A stretch of 64,000 bases of DNA. Source: Pseudodesulfovibrio cashew. Lineage in GTDB: Bacteria > Desulfobacterota > Desulfovibrionia > Desulfovibrionales > Desulfovibrionaceae. Shown here one piece after another: positions 4,609 through 56,842 of this stretch. The stretch spans positions 2,209,501 to 2,273,500 of the forward strand of contig NZ_CP046400.1 in NCBI RefSeq assembly GCF_009762795.1. The letters run 5' to 3'. The notes under the pieces were generated by a model. It saw only the letters and a list, made by a program, of their open reading frames with translations, had not been told where the DNA came from and ran no database searches. How positions within the stretch are numbered: the first letter of the stretch is position 1; every line of letters begins with the position of its first letter. Made by a program: the position numbers and the translations under genes.

Positions 4609-4827
4609 ATGTTCGTGTCAACCAACACGCCGTCATCCGTCCCTGTGGCCGCCTGTGCCCCGTTTGCGGGTCTCGGGCACGCCATGGATGCGGTTGTTGC
4701 CGTGGTCAGATGTCTCTGTCCCCGTTGGAAGGAGTCCGCCGTTGCCGCGCGGATGCCATTCCAGCCCGTCGGAGCATACGGCTACGCCCTGCAATGCCGC
4801 CTGGGCCGGGAAACCCGGGCCGGATGA
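4609..4827 (+). CDS. small conserved leader protein of formate dehydrogenase operon, unknown function
   Basis: A 72-residue frame starts at ATG 4609 behind a strong RBS (GGAGG, 5-base spacing) and ends 22 bases before fdhA. I do not recognise the family, but the protein matches the 76-residue leader gene of the second formate dehydrogenase operon (49671-49901). Both have PF.GLG in the first third, a shared Ala five residues on, and a C-terminal block PV...GY.L...LG.E.R with identical spacing (residues 53-70 here). Both sit about 21 bases upstream of fdhA. It lacks a Tat motif, so it is unlike the known small Tat-target proteins beside fdh genes. A role in maturation or translational control is conceivable but unproven. 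Confidence 0.6.
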   Translation: MFVSTNTPSSVPVAACAPFAGLGHAMDAVVAVVRCLCPRWKESAVAARMPFQPVGAYGYALQCRLGRETRAG

Positions 4828-4849
4828 CCCTCAAACCAAAGGAGTGGGT

Positions 4850-7800
4850 ATGAAAGTCAACAGAAGAAATTTCCTCAAACTGACCGCAGTCACCGCCGTG
4901 TCGTCGGCGTTCTGCGGGCTGGGATTCGAATCCGTGGCGCATGCCGCGGACCGGATCACCATGCTCAAGCCCAAGTGGAGCAAGCAGACCACCAGTATCT
5001 GTCCGTATTGCGCCGTGGGATGCGGCCTGATCGTCAACACCGATCTCAAGACCAAACGGGCCATCAACGTCGAGGGCGACCCCGACCATCCCATCAACGA
5101 GGGAGCCACCTGCGCCAAGGGCGCATCCATCTGGCAGTTGGCCGAGAACGACGAGCGTCCGAAACGTCCCCTGTACCGCGCTCCCTATTCCTCGGAATGG
5201 AAGGAAGTCTCCTGGGAGTGGGCGCTGGGCGAGATCGCCAAGCGGGTCAAGAAGACGCGTGACGCCAGCTTCACCGAAAAGAACGCCAAGGGGCAGGTGG
5301 TGAATCGCTGCAACGGGCTGGCCTCCGCCGGGTCGGCTGCCATCGACAACGAGGAGTGCTGGACCTACCAGGCCATGCTCCGCGCCCTCGGGCTGGTCTA
5401 CGTCGAGCACCAGGCGCGCATCTGCCACAGCTCCACTGTTGCGGCCCTGGCCGAGAGCTTCGGTCGCGGGGCCATGACCAACCACTGGAACGACATCGCC
5501 AACAGCGACTGCATCCTGGTTATGGGCAGCAACGCGGCGGAGAATCATCCCATCTCCTTCAAGTGGGTGATGAAGGCCATGGACAAGGGGGCCAAGCTCA
5601 TCAGCGTGGACCCGCGATTCACCCGTACCTCCTCCAAGGCCGACCTGTACTGCCGACTCCGCGCCGGTACCGACATCGCCGTGCTTGGCGGCATGATCAA
5701 GTACATTCTGGACAATGACCTGATCCAGAAGGACTATGTGGTCAGCCACACCAATGCCGCCTTCATCGTCAGCGACAAGTTCAAATTCGATGACGGCCTC
5801 TTCAGCGGCTACCACAAGAACGGCGACGACGCGGACTATGCCGGTTCCTACGACAAGTCCCAGTGGGCCTTCGAGAAGGACGGCAAGGGATTGCCCAGGA
5901 AGGACGAGACCCTCAAGCATCCCCGCTGCGTGTACAACCTGCTCAAGAAGCACTACGCCCGCTATACCGTTGACAAGGTGGTCAGCGTCTCCGGCATGGA
6001 CAAGGCCAAATTGCTGGAATTCTACAAGCTCTACTCGGCCACGGGCAAGCCGGACAAGGCGGGCACCATCATGTACGCCATGGGCTGGACCCAGCACACG
6101 GTCGGTGTGCAGTACATCCGCACCATGGCCATGGTGCAGTTGCTGCTCGGCAACATCGGCGTGGCCGGCGGCGGTGTAAATGCCCTGCGCGGCGAGTCCA
6201 ACGTCCAGGGCTCCACTGACCACTGCCTGCTGTGGCACATCCTGCCCGGCTACCTGGCCACGCCCAACGCGGGCCTCAAGACCTACAAGGAATACATCGA
6301 CGCCAAGGCCGGGCCTCACCTGGCAGGGGCCAAGGACCCCAAGAGCGCGGCATGGTGGCAGTACTATCCGAAATACATGGCGAGCTTCCTCAAGGCCATG
6401 TACCCCGAGGCGTCACTGGATGACGCCTACTCCTGGCTGCCCAAGGCCGAGGACGGCAAGACCTACACCTGGTTGCAGCTCTTCGAGGCCATGGACAAGA
6501 AGGAGTTCTCCGGCTTCTTCGCCTGGGGCATGAACCCGGCCTGCGGCGGGGCCAATGCAGGCAAGAACCGACGGGCGATGACCAACCTCGACTGGATGGT
6601 CAACGTCAACATCTTCGACAACGAGACCGGCTCCTTCTGGCGTGGACCCGGCATGGATCCGAAGAAGGTCAAGACCGAGGTCTTCTTCCTGCCCTGCGCC
6701 GTGTCCATCGAGAAGGAAGGCTCCATCACCAACTCCGGCCGCTGGATGCAGTGGCGCTACCAGGGGCCCGTGCCCCGGGGCGAGGCCAAGACCGACGGTC
6801 ATATCCTGACCGAGCTCTTCGACACCATCAAGGCGCTCTATGCCGAGGAGGGCGGGGCGTTCCCCGATCCCATCAAGAATCTCTCCGTGGACATGTGGAA
6901 ATCCCACGGTGAGTTCAACGCCCATCAGGCGGCCAAGCTGATCAACGGCTACTTCCTCAAGGACGTGACCATCAAGGGCAAGACCTACAAGAAGGGCACC
7001 CAGGTGCCGAGCTTCGCGTTTCTTCAGGACGACGGCTCCACCTGCTCGGGCAACTGGCTCTACTGCAACTCCTACACCGAGAACGGCAACATGGCCGCCC
7101 GCCGCAACCCGGCGCAGACCCCGGAACAGGAGAAGATCGGCCTGTTCTCCAACTGGTCCTGGTGCTGGCCGGTCAATCGGCGGATCATCTACAACCGGGC
7201 CTCCTGCGACAACACGGGCAAGCCGTACGCCCCGCAGAAGCCGGTCGTTACCTGGAACGGCAAGAAGTGGATCGGCGACGTGCCCGACGGAGGCTGGGCT
7301 CCCGGCACCAAGTACGCCTTCATCATGAAGCCGCACGGCCATGGCCACATCTTCGGTCCGGGCCGTCAGGACGGTCCCTTCCCCGAGCACTACGAGCCCA
7401 TGGAGACCCCCTTCAAGGCGCACGAACTCTCGCATCAGCTCAACAACCCCACGGCGCTTCGCTTCGCTCATGAGGCTCTGGCCGTGGCCGATCCCAAGTA
7501 TCCGCATGTGGCCATGACCTACCGCGTTACCGAACATTGGCAGACCGGCCTGATGACGCGCCACACTCCGTGGCTGCTTGAGGCCATGCCGCAGATGTTC
7601 GTGGAGATGAGCGAGGAGCTGGCCAAGGAGAAGGGTATCGCCAACGGCGAAAAGGTCACGGTTGAAAGCATGCGCGGCAACCTGTGGGCCATCGCCATCG
7701 TGACCAAGCGGATGCAACCGCTCAAGGTCATGGGCAAGACCGTCCACCAGATCGGCATGCCGTGGTGCTTCGGTTGGCAGATGCCCCACGACGGCAGCGG

Positions 7801-7897
7801 CGGTGATTCCGCCAACCTGCTGACCCCGTCGGTGGGTGATCCCAACACCGGCATCCCCGAAACCAAGGTCTTCGTGGCCAACGTCCGCAAGATGTAA
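4850..7897 (+). CDS. fdhA: periplasmic formate dehydrogenase catalytic subunit, cysteine type
   Basis: 1015 residues, full length for the Mo/W-bisPGD formate dehydrogenase alpha subunit. The start at 4850 follows AAAGGAGTGGG and opens a Tat signal (NRRNFLKLTA) ending near HAADR. A [4Fe-4S] cluster is bound by Cys51, Cys54, Cys58 and Cys88. The catalytic position in EHQARI-C-HSSTVA is Cys192 (codon TGC at 5423-5425), where many homologues, including the paralogue at 46602-49649, have selenocysteine. It oxidises formate to CO2 (or the reverse) in the periplasm and passes electrons to FdhB. No cytochrome gene follows in this operon, so electrons probably go to a soluble cytochrome c3 pool. Confidence 0.93.
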   Translation: MKVNRRNFLKLTAVTAVSSAFCGLGFESVAHAADRITMLKPKWSKQTTSICPYCAVGCGLIVNTDLKTKRAINVEGDPDHPINEGATCAKGASIWQLAENDERPKRPLYRAPYSSEWKEVSWEWALGEIAKRVKKTRDASFTEKNAKGQVVNRCNGLASAGSAAIDNEECWTYQAMLRALGLVYVEHQARICHSSTVAALAESFGRGAMTNHWNDIANSDCILVMGSNAAENHPISFKWVMKAMDKGAKLISVDPRFTRTSSKADLYCRLRAGTDIAVLGGMIKYILDNDLIQKDYVVSHTNAAFIVSDKFKFDDGLFSGYHKNGDDADYAGSYDKSQWAFEKDGKGLPRKDETLKHPRCVYNLLKKHYARYTVDKVVSVSGMDKAKLLEFYKLYSATGKPDKAGTIMYAMGWTQHTVGVQYIRTMAMVQLLLGNIGVAGGGVNALRGESNVQGSTDHCLLWHILPGYLATPNAGLKTYKEYIDAKAGPHLAGAKDPKSAAWWQYYPKYMASFLKAMYPEASLDDAYSWLPKAEDGKTYTWLQLFEAMDKKEFSGFFAWGMNPACGGANAGKNRRAMTNLDWMVNVNIFDNETGSFWRGPGMDPKKVKTEVFFLPCAVSIEKEGSITNSGRWMQWRYQGPVPRGEAKTDGHILTELFDTIKALYAEEGGAFPDPIKNLSVDMWKSHGEFNAHQAAKLINGYFLKDVTIKGKTYKKGTQVPSFAFLQDDGSTCSGNWLYCNSYTENGNMAARRNPAQTPEQEKIGLFSNWSWCWPVNRRIIYNRASCDNTGKPYAPQKPVVTWNGKKWIGDVPDGGWAPGTKYAFIMKPHGHGHIFGPGRQDGPFPEHYEPMETPFKAHELSHQLNNPTALRFAHEALAVADPKYPHVAMTYRVTEHWQTGLMTRHTPWLLEAMPQMFVEMSEELAKEKGIANGEKVTVESMRGNLWAIAIVTKRMQPLKVMGKTVHQIGMPWCFGWQMPHDGSGGDSANLLTPSVGDPNTGIPETKVFVANVRKM

Positions 7898-7907
7898 GGA
7901 GAACGCA

Positions 7908-8633
7908 ATGAACGGTAAATCATTCCTCGTCGACCTGACCCGCTGCACCGCGTGCCGCGGATGCCAGGTGGCCTGCAAGCAATGGAAGAAGCTCCCCGCC
8001 GAGAAGACGAAGAACTGGGGTTCGTATCAGAATCCCAAGGACCTCTCCTCGAAAACCATCCGGCTTGTCCGCTTCTCCGAAGTGGAAGTGGACGGTGACC
8101 TGAATTGGCTGTTCTTCCCGGAACAGTGTCGTCACTGTGTGGAGGCCCCGTGCGCCGATGTGCCCGAGAACCCCAAGGCTATCGTGCATGACCCGGATAC
8201 CGGGGCGGTGGTCTACACCGAGCTGACTGCCAAGGAGGACGGAGAGGCCATCCGCATGGCGTGCCCCTACGACATCCCCAGGGTGGACCCCGAGACCAAG
8301 GTCGTCAACAAGTGCGACATGTGCATCGACCGGGTCCAGGCCGGGAGGCTTCCGGCCTGTGTCCAGGCGTGCCCCACCGGAACCATGAACTTCGGCGACC
8401 GCGAGGACATGCTCAAGCTGGCCGAAGAGCGGCTGGCCTCGGTCAAGGAGAAATTCCCGCAGGCCATGCTGGTGGACCCGGATGAAACACGGGTCATCTA
8501 TCTGGCCTCAGCGCCTCCCGAAGACTACTATCAATATCTGGAAGCGGATGCTTCCGGTTCCATGCCTGATTCGATGACCAGAAAGCAGCTCCTGGCGAAG
8601 CTGGGAAGCCCCATCAAACGTATGCGCGCATAG
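7908..8633 (+). CDS. fdhB: formate dehydrogenase iron-sulfur beta subunit
   Basis: 241 residues starting 10 bases after fdhA, with an RBS AAGGAG. The ferredoxin-like layout has four Cys groups: CTACRGCQVAC, CRHCVEAPC, an ACPYD segment, and CDMC...CVQACPTG, enough for the usual four [4Fe-4S] clusters. It is the electron-transfer partner of FdhA, exported with it by the Tat signal of the alpha subunit since it has no signal of its own. It is close to the second beta subunit at 45850-46602 (same MNGKSF start, same CxACRGCQVACKQWK block). There is no membrane anchor gene, consistent with a soluble periplasmic FdhAB dimer. Confidence 0.92.
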   Translation: MNGKSFLVDLTRCTACRGCQVACKQWKKLPAEKTKNWGSYQNPKDLSSKTIRLVRFSEVEVDGDLNWLFFPEQCRHCVEAPCADVPENPKAIVHDPDTGAVVYTELTAKEDGEAIRMACPYDIPRVDPETKVVNKCDMCIDRVQAGRLPACVQACPTGTMNFGDREDMLKLAEERLASVKEKFPQAMLVDPDETRVIYLASAPPEDYYQYLEADASGSMPDSMTRKQLLAKLGSPIKRMRA

Positions 8634-45408: not shown

Positions 45409-45825
45409 CTAGTACAAACCTTCAGGGTGGCAGGAGGAGTTTGCACAACCCGTCATGTCCTTGTCGCCAGAGAATTCTTCCTCATGGCAGGAGAGACAGG
45501 AGGTCCGTCCCGGGTTCTTCACATGCATCGCACGGAAGTAGGACTTGGGACCCTGGGCGTCGGGCGCGGTGTCGGTGTGACAGTTCGCGCAGGACTCGGG
45601 TTCGTCCTTGACCGTGTTTTTATGGTGACAGGTGAAGCAATCGATACCTTCATGACTGGAATGGTTGAAGACCACTCCCAGGTCACGCTTGCTGTTTCCC
45701 TTGATGACATTGATCTCAAGGTCATCGTCAGGAGCATCGATGGACGACACCAGTTCTGACTGGGCAAAGGCCAACACTGCGGTAAGACAAACACACAGCA
45801 GGGACATGATGAATGCTTTTTTCAT
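45409..45825 (-). CDS. tetraheme cytochrome c3, formate dehydrogenase associated
   Basis: 138 residues with a signal peptide (to about AFAQS). Four heme-binding motifs are seen: CFTCH (63-67), CANCH (79-83), CLSCH (110-114) and the longer CANSSCH (127-133), the mix of CX2CH and CX4CH known from class III cytochromes c3. Histidines in FNHSSHEG (54, 58) and elsewhere can be the distal heme ligands. It is 24 bases after fdhB, so with FdhA and FdhB it forms an FdhABC3-type enzyme that passes formate electrons to the periplasmic cytochrome network. Confidence 0.9.
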   Translation of the reverse strand: MKKAFIMSLLCVCLTAVLAFAQSELVSSIDAPDDDLEINVIKGNSKRDLGVVFNHSSHEGIDCFTCHHKNTVKDEPESCANCHTDTAPDAQGPKSYFRAMHVKNPGRTSCLSCHEEEFSGDKDMTGCANSSCHPEGLY

Positions 45826-45849: not shown

Positions 45850-46602
45850 TTACGCTTTTGCCTTGGAAGCGAAACGGCCGACGAGCAACTCGCGGCGGTT
45901 GACGCCTCCCTTGGCCAAAGCCTTTTTCGCCAGCTTGCTGCCATCGGCTGATGCGAGCAGGTTGCCGTTATAGCTTTCCGGCGGAGCGGCGCACAAGTAG
46001 ATGACTCGAACAGACTCGGGGTCTGCCAGGTAGGCATCAGGGTTGGTCTTCTTGACTTCCGCCAGGCGTTTTTCCGCAAGCGCGAGCATGTCCTCACGGT
46101 TGCCGAAGTTCATGGTGCCGGTGGGGCAACTCTGAACACAGGCGGGCAGACGGCCGACTTGCACACGGTCCAGGCACATGTCGCACTTGAACCATTCTCC
46201 GCTTTTTTCGTCCATGCGAGGCACGTTGTACGGGCACAGCTCTTCACTGGTCACTTTCGCGCCAATGCCTGCCGTGCGGCTGTTCATGACAACGGCCCCG
46301 GTGTCGGCGTCCTGCTTGATGCCTTCATTGCAGTACATGTTTCCAATGTACTTGCAGGGAGGCTCAAGGCAGTGACGGCACTGCTCCGGGAAGAAGTACC
46401 ACTGCAGCTTGCCTTCGGCATCACGGTCTTCGTTGAAACGGACAAGACGGATGGTCTGAAAGGACAAGTCCTGCGGGTTCTGGTGGGAGCCGACATTGCG
46501 GGTTTTTTCAGCAGGGAGGTTCTTCCACTGCTTACAGGCAACCTGGCAACCACGGCACGCGGTACAAAGGGTCAAATCAACAAAAAAGCTTTTGCCGTTC
46601 AT
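45850..46602 (-). CDS. fdhB: formate dehydrogenase iron-sulfur beta subunit (Sec operon)
   Basis: 250 residues. The start ATG shares a base with the fdhA stop codon (TAATG). Cys groups CTACRGCQVAC, CRHCLEPPC, CPYN and CDMC...CVQSCPTG can hold four [4Fe-4S] clusters. It is clearly paralogous to the beta subunit at 7908-8633 but has an insertion around YIGNMYCNEGIKQD. It links FdhA to cytochrome c3. Confidence 0.92.
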   Translation of the reverse strand: MNGKSFFVDLTLCTACRGCQVACKQWKNLPAEKTRNVGSHQNPQDLSFQTIRLVRFNEDRDAEGKLQWYFFPEQCRHCLEPPCKYIGNMYCNEGIKQDADTGAVVMNSRTAGIGAKVTSEELCPYNVPRMDEKSGEWFKCDMCLDRVQVGRLPACVQSCPTGTMNFGNREDMLALAEKRLAEVKKTNPDAYLADPESVRVIYLCAAPPESYNGNLLASADGSKLAKKALAKGGVNRRELLVGRFASKAKA

Positions 46603-49600
46603 TATTTATCCCCTTCCTTCCACTTGCGCAGGTTGACCATGAACGCCTTGTATTCGGGAATACCGGTGTTCGGATCGCCAACGTTGGGTGTTACAATGTT
46701 TGCGGAGTCGCCACCGTCGACAGGCATTACCCAGCCGTAGTGCCAGGGCATGCCCACCATATGAACGTCATTGCCGTCGATCTTGTACGGCTGGATGCGT
46801 TCGGTGACCATTGCGATTGCCCATAGGGAACCACGGACGCTTTCGATGGTGACTTTTTCACCGTTCTTGATGCCGCGAAGTTCAGCCAGTTGCGGGCTGA
46901 TCTCGACAAACATCTGCGGTTCGGCTTCCACCAGCCAGTCGCACCAGCGGGTCATGGACCCTGTCTGCCAGTGCTCGGTCAGGCGGTAGGTGGTACCGAC
47001 GAACGGGTAGCGCGGATCGCAAACAGCCTTCTCTTCTCCCTTGATCTGAACCGCAGTCGGGTTGTGGAGCGTGCTCGAGAAGGGATGTTCTTTGACGGGA
47101 CATTCCAAGGGCTCGTAGTACTCGGGCAGCGGTCCATCAGCGCGGCCGGGGCCAAAGAGCTGGCCGAAGCCGTGCTTGCGCATGATGAACGGATGCTTGG
47201 TGCCGGGAGCCCAGCCGCCGTCGGGAACGTCGCCTTCCCATTTCTTGCCGTTCCATTCGATAACGGTTCGTTCCGGGTTCCAGGGCTTGCCCTGTAAATC
47301 GACGGATGCCCTGTTGTAGAGGATGCGTCGGTTGACGGGCCAGCACCAGGTCCAGTTCGGGAACAAGCCGATCTTCTCCTGCAGAGGAGTCTGAGCGGCG
47401 TTGTGGCGTTCGGCCTTGTTCTCCGTGTCACTCACGGAGTTGCAGTAGAGCCAGTTGCCGGATGTGGTGGAGCCGTCGTCCTGGAGGTAGGCAAAGCTCG
47501 GGACCTGCTGTCCCTTCTTGAACTCCTTGCCCTTGATCACAGTGTCCTTGGTGAACCAGCCGTTGATGAGCCTTGCAGTCTGCTGTGCGCTGAACTCCAT
47601 GTGACCATGGTCATTCTTCACACACATATTTTCAAAGCTCAGGCGGGTGATCGGTTCGGGGTAGGCTCCGCCTTCTTTCTCATACAGTTCGACCATCTCT
47701 TCCCACAGTTCGTGGAAGTAGTGGCCGTCGGTGAGCACGCCGTCTTTGGGTTCCGGACCGGCATAGCGCCACTGCATCCAGCGGCCGGAGTTGGAAACCG
47801 AGCCTTCCTTTTCGATTGCGGTGGCGCAAGGAATGAAGAAGGTTTCGGTCTTGACCTTGCTCGGGTCCATTCCGGGACCTTTCCAGAAGCTGGAGGTTTC
47901 GCAGTCAAAGACGTTGACGTTCACCATCCAGTCGAGCTGGGCAATGGCCTTGCGGGTTTTCACGGAGTCGGAGCTGGAACATGCAGGGTTCATTCCCCAG
48001 ATCCATGCGCCGGTGAATCCGCCATTGTACATGCGATCAATGAGCGGAATCCAGGAGTACTCGCTTGCCTTGTGGTTTTCCAACTTGGGCAGGTAGCTGT
48101 AGGCGTCCTTCGGATCGTCATCGGAGTACATGGCCTTGATCAGGCTGGCCGAGTACTTGGGATAGTTCTGCCACCAGTTCGCACTCATCGGGTCCTTGGT
48201 CACGGGCGCGAACTTCTTGTTGTACTGGTCAAGCGTGTCCAGTCCGGCAAGGGGGGTCGCGATGTATCCCGGGAGGATGTGGTAGAGGAGGGCGTAGTCG
48301 GTGGAGCCCTGAACGTTGCACTCGCCGCGCAGCGCGTTGACGCCGCCGCCGGCGATGCCGATGTTGCCGAGCAGGAGCTGGATCATGGCCATGGCGCGGA
48401 TGTTCTGCACGCCTACGGAGTGCTGAGTCCAGCCCATCGCATACATGATGGTGCCTGCTTTTTTCGCAGTACCCGTCGCGGAATACAACTCGTAGAGTTC
48501 GGTCAGTTCTTCGGGAGAGATACCCGACATTCTTGAGACCTTGTCCAGCGTATACCGTTCGTAGTGCTTCTTCACGATCTGGAAGACGCAACGCGGGTGT
48601 TGCAGGGATTTGTCCATCTTGGGGACGCCGTTGGCGTCGTTTTCGAATGCCCACTTTGACTTGTCATAAGAGGCAGTCTTCGGATCAAACCCGGAGAAGA
48701 GGCCATCCTCGAATCCGTAATCCTTGCCAACGATGAAAGACGCGTTGGTGTAATCACGCATGTAATCGAGGAAATAGCGCTTATTATCGATAATAAACTT
48801 AATCATACCGCCGAGAACGGCGATATCAGAGCCGGAACGAAGCGCATAGTACTTGTCGGAACGTGCGGACGTACGAGTGTACCGCGGATCAACATGGATG
48901 ATCTTTCCGCCCTTGGCTTGCGCTTTCAATGCCCATTTGAAGGAAATGGGATGGTTTTCGGCAGCATTGCTGCCCATAATCAAAATACAATCACTGTTCT
49001 GTAAATCATTCCAGTGGTTGGTCATCGCACCGCGTCCGAACGACTCTCCCAGAGCCGCAACAGTTGCGCTGTGTCAGATACGAGCCTGATGTTCGAGGTA
49101 TACGATTCCCTGGGCACGCATGAATGCGTGCATTGCGTAACACTCTTCGTTGTCCAGCGCTGCGGAGCCGAGGGAGGCTACGCCCATGTTGCGGTTGACA
49201 ACCTGACCTTTGTCGTTCTTTTCCTGGAAGGATTTATCACGGGATTCTTTTGCAAGCTTGGCGATGCGTTTTTTGCACCAGTCCCAGCTTTTTTCTTCCC
49301 ATTCTCCGGAGTAGGGGGCGCGGTACAGGCACTTGCCGGTACGCAGCTTGTTTTCGGTCATCTGGATGGAGCTTGCGCCCTTTGCACAGAGAGAGCCTTC
49401 GTTGATGGGGTGGTCGGGGTTACCTTCCACGTTGATGGCTCTTTTGGTCTCCAAAGAAGTAGTGACTACCAACCCGCAACCAACAGAGCAGTAGGCACAG
49501 ACAGAAGTCGTTTCCTTGCTCCATTCGGGTTTCATTTGGGCAATCTTTGCGACCGCTGATTTCTTGCATCCCGCACCGAGGCCGGAAAAGGCCACGCTAA

Positions 49601-49649
49601 GAGCGGTTGCTGAAGACAGCTTCACAAAGTCACGGCGATTAAGTTTCAT
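46602..49649 (-). CDS. fdhA: periplasmic formate dehydrogenase catalytic subunit, selenocysteine type
   Basis: One gene of 1016 codons that looks split because an in-frame TGA occurs at 49074-49076 (codon 192). The TGA stands exactly where the paralogue at 4850 has Cys192, in EHQARI-x-HSATVAALGESFGRGAMTNHW, so it encodes selenocysteine and the product is 1015 residues. A Tat signal (NRRDFVKLSS) and [4Fe-4S] Cys51, Cys54 and Cys58 are present. The frame stays open on both sides with no frameshift. It oxidises formate with a Mo or W bis-MGD centre. Needs SelA, SelB, SelC and SelD from elsewhere in the genome. Confidence 0.93.
49042..49076 (-). promoter_or_regulatory. selenocysteine TGA codon with SECIS-like hairpin
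   Basis: The recoded TGA is at 49074-49076. Just after it on the minus strand, nucleotides 18-32 form GGCTCT-GGG-AGAGTC (49042-49056; six pairs with one G:U and G residues in the loop), at the distance expected for the SelB-binding apical loop of bacterial SECIS elements. A competing small stem CGCAA-CTG-TTGCG lies between. Folding was done by eye only. Confidence 0.7.
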
Positions 49650-49670: not shown

Positions 49671-49901
49671 TTATCGTCCACGAATCTCACAGCCGAGCAC
49701 TGTAAGGAGCCTGTAACCGGAGAGCGCCACAGGAGGCTCATGAAGAGCCATGTCGTCGCCAAAAGAGGCTGGAGCCCAGGTTACGACCTGGACATGCAGC
49801 GTTTCGGCATACTCCTCACACGCTTCAAGAGACACACCAAGCCCTCCAAAAGGAAGATCAGCTGTGCTCCGCGCTGTTGTGGGTTTTTCGTCGAGTGCCA
49901 T
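49671..49901 (-). CDS. small conserved leader protein of Sec formate dehydrogenase operon, unknown function
   Basis: A 76-residue frame from ATG 49901 with a strong RBS (GGAGG, 6-7 bases before), ending 21 bases before fdhA. It parallels the 72-residue leader gene at 4609-4827 in the Cys operon: PF.GLG (17-22), Ala27, and the C-terminal block PV...GY.L...LG.E.R (57-74), all with matching spacing; the middle is variable with a five-residue length difference. No signal peptide, membrane helix or Tat motif. I know no named family with this pattern. Conservation in both operons argues that it is a real protein. Confidence 0.6.
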   Translation of the reverse strand: MALDEKPTTARSTADLPFGGLGVSLEACEEYAETLHVQVVTWAPASFGDDMALHEPPVALSGYRLLTVLGCEIRGR

Positions 49902-54595: not shown

Positions 54596-56842
54596 TTAGG
54601 CCCTTTCGATGTCGGCGAACTGGTCATGGATGGCCACGCCGGGGGCGCCGGCCTTGTACGCGCCCATGTCGGCGGATTCGTCGTCAACAAGGTTCTGGAC
54701 GTTGAAGTCCGAGCCCCTGCCGAACCAGGCCTCGTAGATGAGCAGGCAGTCCTCGGCCACATTGTCGGTCAGCTTGACCCGGGCCTTCTGCTCGCCCACC
54801 TTGTTGAAGACGCGGACCATGTCGAGGTCGGTGATGCCCTTCCCGGCCGCGGCCTTGGGATGCATGTAGACGAACGGCTCCTTGTTGTATTCCTTCATCC
54901 AGTCAAGGTTGACGAACTGGGAATGGATGCCGAACTTGGTGTGGGGCGTGAGCAGGCGGAACTTGTCGTAGCTCTTCCGGCCTTCCTTGAATTCCGGCAG
55001 CGCCTTGTGGCCATGCTCGGCGCACAGGTCCGACCTGAACTCGTACTTGCCGGATGGGGTGCCGAATTTCATATCGTGCCAGGAAGCGGAGGACGCGAGC
55101 TTGGCCTTGGCCGGACCTTTTTGCAGGTCGGTCCAGTCGTTGATGCCGAAGAGATCGTGGATTCCCTGGTTGAATTCCTTGGCCATCCATTCCTTGCCGT
55201 CGATTTCGGTGGGCAATGTGCAGGAGCCGGGGGAGAGCTCGTTCATCTTCTTGGATAGCGCTGCTCCGATCTCGAGGTTGGATTTGGCCTCGTGCAGGGG
55301 CTTGATGGCCTGCTCGTTTATGCTCAGCCAGTAGTGCCAATACGAGGCGTTCACGGTCCATTCCTCGAACAGGGTGGTGACCGGCAGGACGATGTCCGAG
55401 TTGGCCACGGTCTCGTTGAAGAACTGGTCCACGGTGACGACCATCTCCAGCGTGTCGAACGCCTTTTGCAGTTTCGGCCGGTCGAAATCCTGCCCGAACG
55501 GGTTCTTGCAGGAGACCCACAACATCCGGATGGCCGGGTCCTTGGTGTCCAGAATGGCCTGGGCTGTCTTGTTGATGTTGACGGTCCGGTCGGAGTAGTT
55601 CGTCTTCTGGTCGGCAGTCAGGTCGAATTCGCCCTTGGCCGCTGCGCCGACAAAGCCCACCGACCCTTCCGGCTGCTTCTGGATGAAGGCGTTGTAGTTG
55701 AAGCCCCAGGTTTGCAGGTGGCCATAGCGGGCGCCGCCGCCTTCCTTGCCGATGTTGCCGGTCATGGCGACCAGGGCGTCGATGGAGCGGACGGACGCGC
55801 CTCCGTTGGTGTGGCGCTGCATGCCGTAGCCGATCCAGATGGTGGCCGGATCGGCGGTGGCGAACTCCTCGGCCACTTCCCTGATCTCCTGCGCCGGGAT
55901 GCCGCTCTGCTCGGCGGCCCATTCGACGGTAACGTTTTTTCGCAGATAGTCGGCGAATTCGTTGAAGCCATGGGCATGGCTCTCGACGAAGTCCTTGTTG
56001 ACCAATCCCTTGTCCAGGATGTGCCGCGCCATGCCGAGGGCCAGCGCGCCGTCACTGGCGGTCTTGGGCTGCCAGTATACATCGCCCTTGGCTGCCGTCT
56101 GGGTAAAGACCGGGTCGATGACCACGACCTTGGCCCCTCGGCGTTTGGCCTCCTGGATGAACTTCATGGTGTGCACGGAGCACCAGGCGGGGTTCGCGCC
56201 CCAGACGATGACGTATCGGGCCTTGACCATGTCTTCGGGATCGTTGCACCACATGTTGCCCATGTCGTAGTTCTGGGCATCAATGCCGGCGGGCCAGCAG
56301 GGCGTGCCCACGAAACGGGTGGTGTATCCCAGAGAGGACATCAACCCCTCGACTCCGTAGTTGGTGATGCCGAAGTTGCCGGAATACTTTGTCATGCCAA
56401 GACCAAGCAGACTGCCGTCCTGTTTCTTGAGTTCCAGGATTTTCTTGGCGATCATGTCCATGGCTTCATCCCAGGAAACGCGGCGCCACTTGCCTGTGCG
56501 GCGGCCGTCCTGGACCATGGGATATTTGACGCGGTCCGGGCTGTAGGGGCGGCGGGTGTAGGAATACCCCTTCACGCACAGGCCGCCGTCGGTGAACGTC
56601 GATTCGGGCGCGCCCTCGACGAACTGGAGGACGCCGTCCTTGACGTAGCTCTTGATGCTACAGGTGTCGTAACAGTTTCGGGGGCAGGCGTTGCGGAACA
56701 CCTGGAATTCGTCCGGGTTGAACGCAGCCGCCTGGGCGGTGCCGGGTACCAGCAGCCGACAGGGCAGCATGGCGGCCGCACCGGCCGCCGTCATGCCTTT
56801 CAGAAACCGCCGCCTGCTCAGGGTCTGTTTTTTACTAGCCAT
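54596..56842 (-). CDS. dmsA: DMSO reductase-family molybdoenzyme catalytic subunit
   Basis: 748 residues with a Tat signal (SRRRFLKGMT). A [4Fe-4S] site is formed by ACPRNCYDTC and CVKG. Bis-MGD pterin contacts such as WGANPAWC and GHKALPEF/LTPHTKFGIHSQF are present. The exact Mo ligand cannot be fixed by eye; a Cys occurs in VGTPCWPAG. With B and C subunits and a TorD-like chaperone this is a DmsABC-type respiratory enzyme, but polysulfide, thiosulfate or another S/N-oxide is possible. The operon order is torD-A-B-C. Confidence 0.82.
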   Translation of the reverse strand: MASKKQTLSRRRFLKGMTAAGAAAMLPCRLLVPGTAQAAAFNPDEFQVFRNACPRNCYDTCSIKSYVKDGVLQFVEGAPESTFTDGGLCVKGYSYTRRPYSPDRVKYPMVQDGRRTGKWRRVSWDEAMDMIAKKILELKKQDGSLLGLGMTKYSGNFGITNYGVEGLMSSLGYTTRFVGTPCWPAGIDAQNYDMGNMWCNDPEDMVKARYVIVWGANPAWCSVHTMKFIQEAKRRGAKVVVIDPVFTQTAAKGDVYWQPKTASDGALALGMARHILDKGLVNKDFVESHAHGFNEFADYLRKNVTVEWAAEQSGIPAQEIREVAEEFATADPATIWIGYGMQRHTNGGASVRSIDALVAMTGNIGKEGGGARYGHLQTWGFNYNAFIQKQPEGSVGFVGAAAKGEFDLTADQKTNYSDRTVNINKTAQAILDTKDPAIRMLWVSCKNPFGQDFDRPKLQKAFDTLEMVVTVDQFFNETVANSDIVLPVTTLFEEWTVNASYWHYWLSINEQAIKPLHEAKSNLEIGAALSKKMNELSPGSCTLPTEIDGKEWMAKEFNQGIHDLFGINDWTDLQKGPAKAKLASSASWHDMKFGTPSGKYEFRSDLCAEHGHKALPEFKEGRKSYDKFRLLTPHTKFGIHSQFVNLDWMKEYNKEPFVYMHPKAAAGKGITDLDMVRVFNKVGEQKARVKLTDNVAEDCLLIYEAWFGRGSDFNVQNLVDDESADMGAYKAGAPGVAIHDQFADIERA

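Follow-up and report, generated by a model that had tools for sequence, protein, structure and literature searches.

TIGR02811, the "formate dehydrogenase region TAT target" family, comprises proteins of about 70 aa that are encoded beside fdh genes, have a conserved C-terminus and carry a full twin-arginine signal. In the SecM, VemP, MifM and TnaC systems, a small frame with a short conserved tail precedes a regulated gene, and in Rhodobacter the small gene of CutF (DUF2946), whose C-terminus is conserved at the stop codon, lies directly upstream of cutO, which encodes a Tat-exported metalloenzyme; both arrangements are taken from the account in PMC9973294. For the REMPs FdhE, TorD, DmsD, NapD and FdhM, the Tat signal of a molybdoenzyme is the established or supposed point of action, as outlined in PMC10609526 and PMC4148689. 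Proofreading of the FDH Tat signal by FdhE is presented in PMC10609526 as likely, not as demonstrated. According to the binding results given in PMC3316669, the parts of a Tat signal that TorD and DmsD recognise are its H and C regions and not its N region, and removal of the positive charges abolished the binding of ssTorA to TorD.

The window analysed here, a stretch of 64,000 nucleotides of Pseudodesulfovibrio cashew (contig NZ_CP046400.1, positions 2,209,501 to 2,273,500), contains two small genes, here called leaders, each placed directly before an fdhA gene.

Leader genes in the genome of P. cashew

Leader copy 1 (4609..4827, + strand) encodes 72 aa and ends 22 nt before fdhA copy 1 (4850..7897, +), and leader copy 2 (49671..49901, - strand) encodes 76 aa and ends 21 nt before fdhA copy 2 (46602..49649, -). 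An earlier sequence-only reading had described two frames of these lengths, each with a strong ribosome-binding site and ending 21-22 bases before fdhA, and this description held: both frames translate, the second solely on the minus strand, and GGAGG lies a few bases 5' of each ATG. Copy 1 carries an N-terminal block, PFAGLGHAMDAVVAVV (P18-V33; 4660..4707, +), which mimics the h/c region of the FdhA signal, and 15 conserved C-terminal residues, GYALQCRLGRETRAG (4780..4824, +), which run to the stop codon. The 22-nt spacer (4828..4849, +) holds the AGGAG Shine-Dalgarno (SD) sequence of fdhA. The downstream FdhA belongs to class I, has Cys instead of Sec at the active site, and begins with the Tat signal RRNFLK...AFCGLGFESVAHAA (4850..4948, +, the end being an estimate); fdhB copy 1 (Fer4_11) follows at 7908..8633 (+). 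The corresponding blocks of leader copy 2 are PFGGLGVSLEACEEYA (P17-A32; 49806..49853, -) and the conserved 15-residue tail GYRLLTVLGCEIRGR (49674..49718, -). Its fdhA is likewise of class I, with a TGA, taken as Sec, as codon 192 for the active site, and is accompanied by fdhB copy 2 (Fer4_11; 45850..46602, -) and an adjoining class III cytochrome c gene (45409..45825, -). A further molybdopterin oxidoreductase with a Tat signal is encoded at 54596-56842 (-).

The two window leaders share 20 identical residues in 70 aligned positions (E 2e-5, in one single comparison). Whole-genome searches started from either of them found a third copy (E 1.8e-4 and 1.6e-5; G000:C1:1477378-1477584, -), placed 24 nt before a third fdhA. 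Since a whole-genome search with FdhA yields three fdhA genes of this kind, every one of them (3/3) has a leader. The Cys form (copy 1) and the TGA/Sec form (copies 2 and 3) of one FdhA class thus stand side by side in one genome. A link of the leader to selenocysteine was considered and rejected, since leaders precede Cys as well as Sec FdhA.

Distribution of the leader family and linkage to fdhA

A first profile of three sequences gave matches in 27 of 59 genomes from the family, and fdhA lay directly downstream in all 32 inspected loci (31, those of the window included, plus one from Desulfovibrio sp. A2). A profile of 32 rows, named A2, was then used at the levels of family, order and phylum. 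Within the family, 117 of 247 genomes matched at E<=0.01, and 105 of them at 1e-6 or better (a count read by eye from tables and loci); two of the 12 weaker matches were inspected (G015 and G137, the latter as L076), and in both the match was the FdhA signal itself. The order-level search matched 93/150 genomes, and four further families of the order contributed 32 genomes, likewise counted by eye, at 1e-6 or better. Only 11/297 genomes matched at the phylum level; the six matches outside the order were weak (E 7.6e-4 to 9.3e-3) and covered just a part of the profile, within positions 3-62; FdhA-like Tat signals account for at least two of these six (L077, L078). Absences in these searches are soft, as only part of the first-pass candidates was scored in many genomes (e.g. 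19-39 of more than 100).

From the profile matches we picked, not exhaustively, 131 distinct full-length loci of the Desulfovibrionales, partial matches being excluded. The leader is directly followed by fdhA in 131/131, with a gap of 20-74 nt (median 26; 20-45 nt in 125/131), and no free-standing copy occurs among these loci. The signal of the downstream FdhA shows the class-I F-x-G pattern at all 131 loci, in 101 of them as AFGGLG. An N block, a linker of bounded length, a tail and a class-I fdhA next to it, which together define the family, are found in both window copies and 129 other loci. Scans against Pfam-A and NCBIfam gave no fitting model for the leader proteins, and no description of the gene was found in the open-access literature searched. 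The proposal of a small protein family, made from the two window copies, is therefore borne out by conservation upstream of fdhA in relatives, the place where the pattern was to be sought, and lack of conservation elsewhere is excluded. Broken frames among relatives, named beforehand as evidence against it, are rare yet present: L091 has lost its tail, and the match at G303:C40 contains two TGA codons, whereas all other listed family and order matches are free of internal stops. Collectively, the leaders are a real small protein family of the Desulfovibrionales, undescribed in the open-access literature searched and strictly tied to one class of FdhA.

Anatomy of the leader protein and selection on it

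The leader has two short conserved blocks with an unconserved linker between them whose length is bounded; the second block is a tail of about 15 residues that reaches the stop codon. The N-terminal block has the consensus PFxGLGxxLxxVxxRA; among the 131 members, P is kept in 125, F in 130, G, L and G in 131 each, and A at F+14 in 101. After the linker come, in order, G (131), Y (101), L (126), L (98), L (121), R (114), E (123), I/T (125), R (112) and G/A (131), and the last residue before the stop is R, S, G or Q in 127/131. The distance from F to the C-terminus varies only between 53 and 63 aa. The motifs PF.GLG and GY.L...LG.E.R, first noticed in the two window copies, are thus features of the family; the "PV" before the tail is unconserved, and the "following Ala" (F+9) is not shared, this position being Ala in 34/131 and Pro in 33/131.

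Selection was analysed in 36 independent pairs, which were chosen for open frames and equal length and are hence uninformative on broken frames. The dN/dS ratio was 0.32 in the N block, 0.58 in the linker and 0.11 in the last 16 codons, compared with 0.09 at the start of fdhA; for the whole leader it was 0.38. The dS values of 0.38-0.44 were similar throughout and about equal to those of fdhA. With a tail almost as constrained as FdhA, a drifting middle and unconstrained synonymous sites, the target of selection is the protein, and an RNA element is not needed to account for the pattern. The leader gene codes for a protein under selection, and its linkage to fdhA in 131/131 loci together with these ratios shows that the family is not a product of chance. 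A clear SD precedes an in-frame start in no more than 97/131 loci, and such a site precedes 24/266 out-of-frame starts.

AlphaFold2 with alignment A2 predicted helices at 27-36 and 59-70 and no fold (mean pLDDT 72.6, pTM 0.27), as expected of two motifs on a tether. No conserved RR is present in A2, and an RR within 30 aa before F occurs in 19/131 leaders; twin arginines followed by a hydrophobic region, as in Tat substrates, are not found, and no Sec signal is evident by eye in the same alignment. The suggestion that the leader is a small structural subunit of the mature enzyme fits the operon position and the strict linkage, but the leaders show no export signal (no conserved RR with a hydrophobic stretch), and a profile search of the PDB (see below) met FdhA chains and no such small chain; we regard this explanation as quite improbable.

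The N block mimics the Tat signal of FdhA

The N block reproduces the stretch of the FdhA signal that begins with the last hydrophobic residues and extends to the cleavage region, with the same spacing and without the twin arginines, as illustrated by L013 (leader PFAGLGFDLAPVAARA, FdhA AFGGLGFDLSPTAAQA). The remark that these proteins lack a Tat motif was thus right for the twin arginines, but the N block itself copies the second part of that Tat signal. F, G, L and G align between the two, each kept in 130-131 of 131 leaders and in 127-131 of 131 FdhA signals. The resemblance emerged from searches not aimed at it. The leader profile also matches, through positions ~9-44, the FdhA signals just downstream in the genomes (E 2.0e-6 in G252). 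Searched against 177,635 PDB sequences, it gave 12 listed matches, 11 of which are FdhA chains, presumably those of D. vulgaris Hildenborough (6SDR), at residues 21-46 (E ~0.07), and the twelfth is EryAI (E 0.81); the E-value is weak alone, and what counts is that the matches are FdhA.

The variable positions also agree more within a locus than between loci. Own-locus agreement over F+5..F+15 was 2.45 of 11 positions, compared with 1.96 on swapping and 2.21 for the top of 1000 swaps, and 32 of the 33 leaders with P at F+9 face a signal with P there, both results being affected by the phylogenetic non-independence of the loci. A partial Mantel test given FdhA relatedness yielded r 0.31 (0/999 permutations). 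Among 65 sister pairs, 46 were informative, with 17 for, 7 against and 22 tied, a result that is weak alone and not decisive; scoring by BLOSUM gave 23 for and 14 against. The weaker core LGxxLxPVxAxA is common to class-II signals and to signals outside the order, so this core is a general feature of FdhA signals and F.GLG is a feature of class I. Similarity reaching past F+14 into mature FdhA was also considered and found little support from column expectations. Taken together, it is nearly certain that the leader family is real and that its N block mimics the FdhA Tat signal. The mimic is probably the leader and not the reverse, since class-I signals keep F.GLG where no leader is present.

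In the genus of the window, many class-I FdhA signals end in GLG(L/A)GC, a Cys replacing the AxA site (L002, L003; 49649-49560, -). This ending may perhaps reflect altered processing or lipid anchoring, the motif not being a canonical lipobox.

Leaders accompany one class of FdhA

We next consider the genes that have no leader. In a sample of 29 fdhA loci from 14 genomes, picked mostly for a weak or absent leader profile, 12 loci were of class I (signal AFxGLG) and 17 of class II (signals such as ..LAQLGVNLTPVKAYA). Six of the class-I loci had a leader, one had a leader without its tail (L091) and five had none; no leader was present at the 17 class-II loci. In 15 copy-rich genomes, 36 of 37 class-I fdhA genes had a leader of their own (counted by eye), and a profile check upstream of the 12 class-II genes found none. 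Overall, a full-length match occurs at 0/29 class-II loci, where matches are merely partial; the leader as a generic fdh marker is rejected on this ground, class-II FdhA being about 55% identical. Neighbouring class-I fdhA genes each with a distinct leader of their own are seen in G013:C12, G044:C3 and G021:C8 (L213, L214, L216, L242).

The leader is therefore found directly before class-I fdhA only, with some losses; class-I genes without it also occur at G038:C25 and at L076 of G137. Since such genes exist, FdhA as such does not depend on the leader. In a tree built from 55 FdhA sequences, class II lies on one side (17 rows, 0 with leader), and class I comprises 38 rows, 32 with and 6 without leader, the latter scattered. 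Three changes of leader presence are needed on this tree, and we read the history, as far as these sequences tell, as probably one gain with several losses. At L091 the N block is intact and the tail is replaced, and the relatives L092 and L093 have no leader; the L091 leader is caught in decay. A reading of the whole family as a decaying copy of the 5' end of fdhA, or as a frame kept purely for translational coupling with a peptide of no role, could draw on these loci and on the match of the N block to the signal, but two findings contradict it, the selection result (a dN/dS of 0.38 overall and 0.11 in the tail, with a dS like that of fdhA) and a tail that is no part of the FdhA signal, and it is hardly credible.

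RNA structure, spacers and codons

The region around the fdhA start was analysed in 129 loci. No hairpin masking the ribosome-binding site was found; the fdhA SD was unpaired at 0.41, compared with 0.35 in shuffled sequences, its openness fell below the shuffle in just 37/129 loci, and the fold was hardly above shuffled (mean z -0.36). Because the SD is, if anything, slightly more open than in shuffles and the fold hardly stronger, a switch of the SecM or CutF type is unsupported. The SD begins a median of 15 nt past the leader stop codon (14-16 nt in 62/129). The leader-fdhA spacer exceeds the class-I fdhA-fdhB spacers, which are 6-14 nt in 9/12 cases and -1, 54 and 150 nt in the others. This contrast is not absolute, since 10 of all 29 computed fdhA-fdhB spacers, two of them class I, are 46-150 nt, with three spurious.

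Rare Arg codons occupy the last leader position at a frequency of 0.49 (of 82), compared with 0.22 in fdhA; pausing at a rare last codon is weakened as an explanation by a control of 617 long ORFs, where the frequency was 0.35 among 46 Arg last codons. RNA explanations, whether pairing near the fdhA start or codon-level constraint, were thus tested and are unsupported.

Candidate partners

The H and C regions read by TorD and DmsD are the part copied by the leader N block. A mimic without twin arginines could bind weakly, given that charge removal abolished the ssTorA-TorD interaction. The PF04216 (FdhE_N) profile found nothing in 18 genomes, and TIGR01562 detected an FdhE relative in 20/21 genomes, all below the curated cut-off; replacement of FdhE function by the leader is therefore rejected. 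The form of the relative that accompanies class I scores more strongly than the one beside class II genes. Some leaders, and also some class-I fdhA genes without leader, have FdhD, FdhE and MobA-like genes nearby. Class-II loci (e.g. L095-L099, L102-L110) have a more divergent FdhE relative close by (TIGR01562 E ~1e-6 to 1e-14). An IS1595-like transposase frame adjoins fdhE in two genomes (L240:3793-4734, L237:4465-5388) and in one of them sits between fdhE and the leader.

A cis-acting leader and its rivals

The leader suggests a new way to time or guide FdhA assembly. Our preferred reading, to which we give a probability of roughly 0.4, is that the leader acts in cis on its own fdhA through a chaperone of the FdhA signal. 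The N block would serve as bait for the protein that holds the FdhA signal during cofactor insertion, FdhE being the leading candidate. Its end lies 38-48 residues from the C-terminal residue at the ribosome centre, and the ribosome tunnel is assumed in PMC9973294 to hold some 30 residues, which would place the N block just outside the tunnel; judging from these lengths, the bait may clear it at about the time the tail and the stop codon are being read. The tail could slow or tune termination, or simply keep the chaperone near. Initiation of fdhA translation 20-45 nt downstream would then be matched to free chaperone, or, alternatively, the chaperone would already sit on the mRNA by the time the FdhA signal appears. 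The tunnel geometry and the placement of the SD and spacer favour a cis leader with the chaperone as its signal, and the strict cis linkage together with the anatomy argues that it probably acts on its own fdhA, whichever of the three roles named in the sequence-only reading (synthesis, maturation or regulation of formate dehydrogenase) it may have. Speaking against this reading are the unmasked fdhA SD, a tail almost devoid of Pro, the in-frame starts with SD at just 97/131 loci, the class-I genes that have no leader and the weak binding that might be expected of a mimic without twin arginines. The most specific form of the proposal, a new class of regulatory leader in which the nascent bait lets the ribosome read the level of free dedicated chaperone before the costly W/Mo-Se FdhA is made, is doubtful.

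A close rival, almost as likely as the cis leader, is a free accessory protein that acts in trans. The finished protein of about 70 aa would remain in the cytosol and compete with or replace the FdhA signal, its target being a chaperone or immature FdhA, thereby blocking premature Tat export, and the tail would bind a second partner. The mimicry and the selection fit this explanation equally well, and the good ribosome-binding site that many leaders have of their own (97/131, as given above) and the FdhD, FdhE and MobA-like genes near some copies speak for it. One copy of such a protein would, however, be expected to serve several paralogues or to move away sometimes, whereas 36/37 class-I fdhA genes in the 15 genomes own one and 131/131 leaders are adjacent to fdhA; in addition, no fold is predicted.

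It is unlikely that the gene is a classical arrest leader, on which ribosome stalling would open a hairpin hiding the fdhA start, although place, size and a conserved tail at the stop codon are similar to those of SecM and CutF. The SecM arrest motif contains IRAG, and leader tails end in IRAG in 3/131 and in TRAG in 11/131, but an AG end occurs in just 16/131 and IRGR in 75. The precedent of CutF before Tat-exported CutO, as described in PMC9973294, is likewise set against the lack of a conserved structure or masked SD in the 129 loci and a dS that is not lowered in the tail.

If true, the bait reading would amount to translation-coupled quality control of Tat cargo, of which we know no counterpart. 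The W and Mo formate dehydrogenases found in this group are under study as enzymes that reduce CO2, and the leader touches the question of how their production is coordinated with the insertion of cofactors and with Tat export. A gene carrying a copy of the next product's export tag points to a recognition step and is simple to mutate, and the mimicry marks the signal residues that matter: F, G, L and G.

Comparison with known systems

The leader resembles TIGR02811 proteins in size, fdh neighbourhood and conserved C-terminus and differs in lacking their twin-arginine signal; the TIGR02811/NCBIfam search gave no match for P0001 and P0003 at E<=1 and three unrelated weak ones among 32 members. 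It shares with CutF the position directly before the gene of a Tat-exported metalloenzyme and the conservation at the stop codon. Unlike CutF, the leaders have no DUF2946 (32 members scanned; a single unrelated match at E 0.22), a CxxxC metal motif in just 2/131, a tail that is not Pro-rich (Pro in the last 15 residues of 1/131) and, at 129 loci, no RBS hairpin of the kind used by CutF and SecM switches. With SecM, VemP, MifM and TnaC the likeness lies in the short conserved tail of a small frame before another gene, but the signal-like block of the leader copies the signal of the downstream protein, and no RNA switch was found. REMPs bind the signal, whereas the leader resembles it, and no Pfam or NCBIfam match connects the two. 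There is also the likeness to the later half of the FdnG-type FdhA Tat signal, F-x-G-L-G-x-x-L-x-P-x-x-x-R-A in the same spacing, from which the leader differs in having neither twin arginines nor an n-region, in carrying Pro for Ala before F in 125/131 and in its conserved tail, a feature of the leader that FdhA signals do not share.
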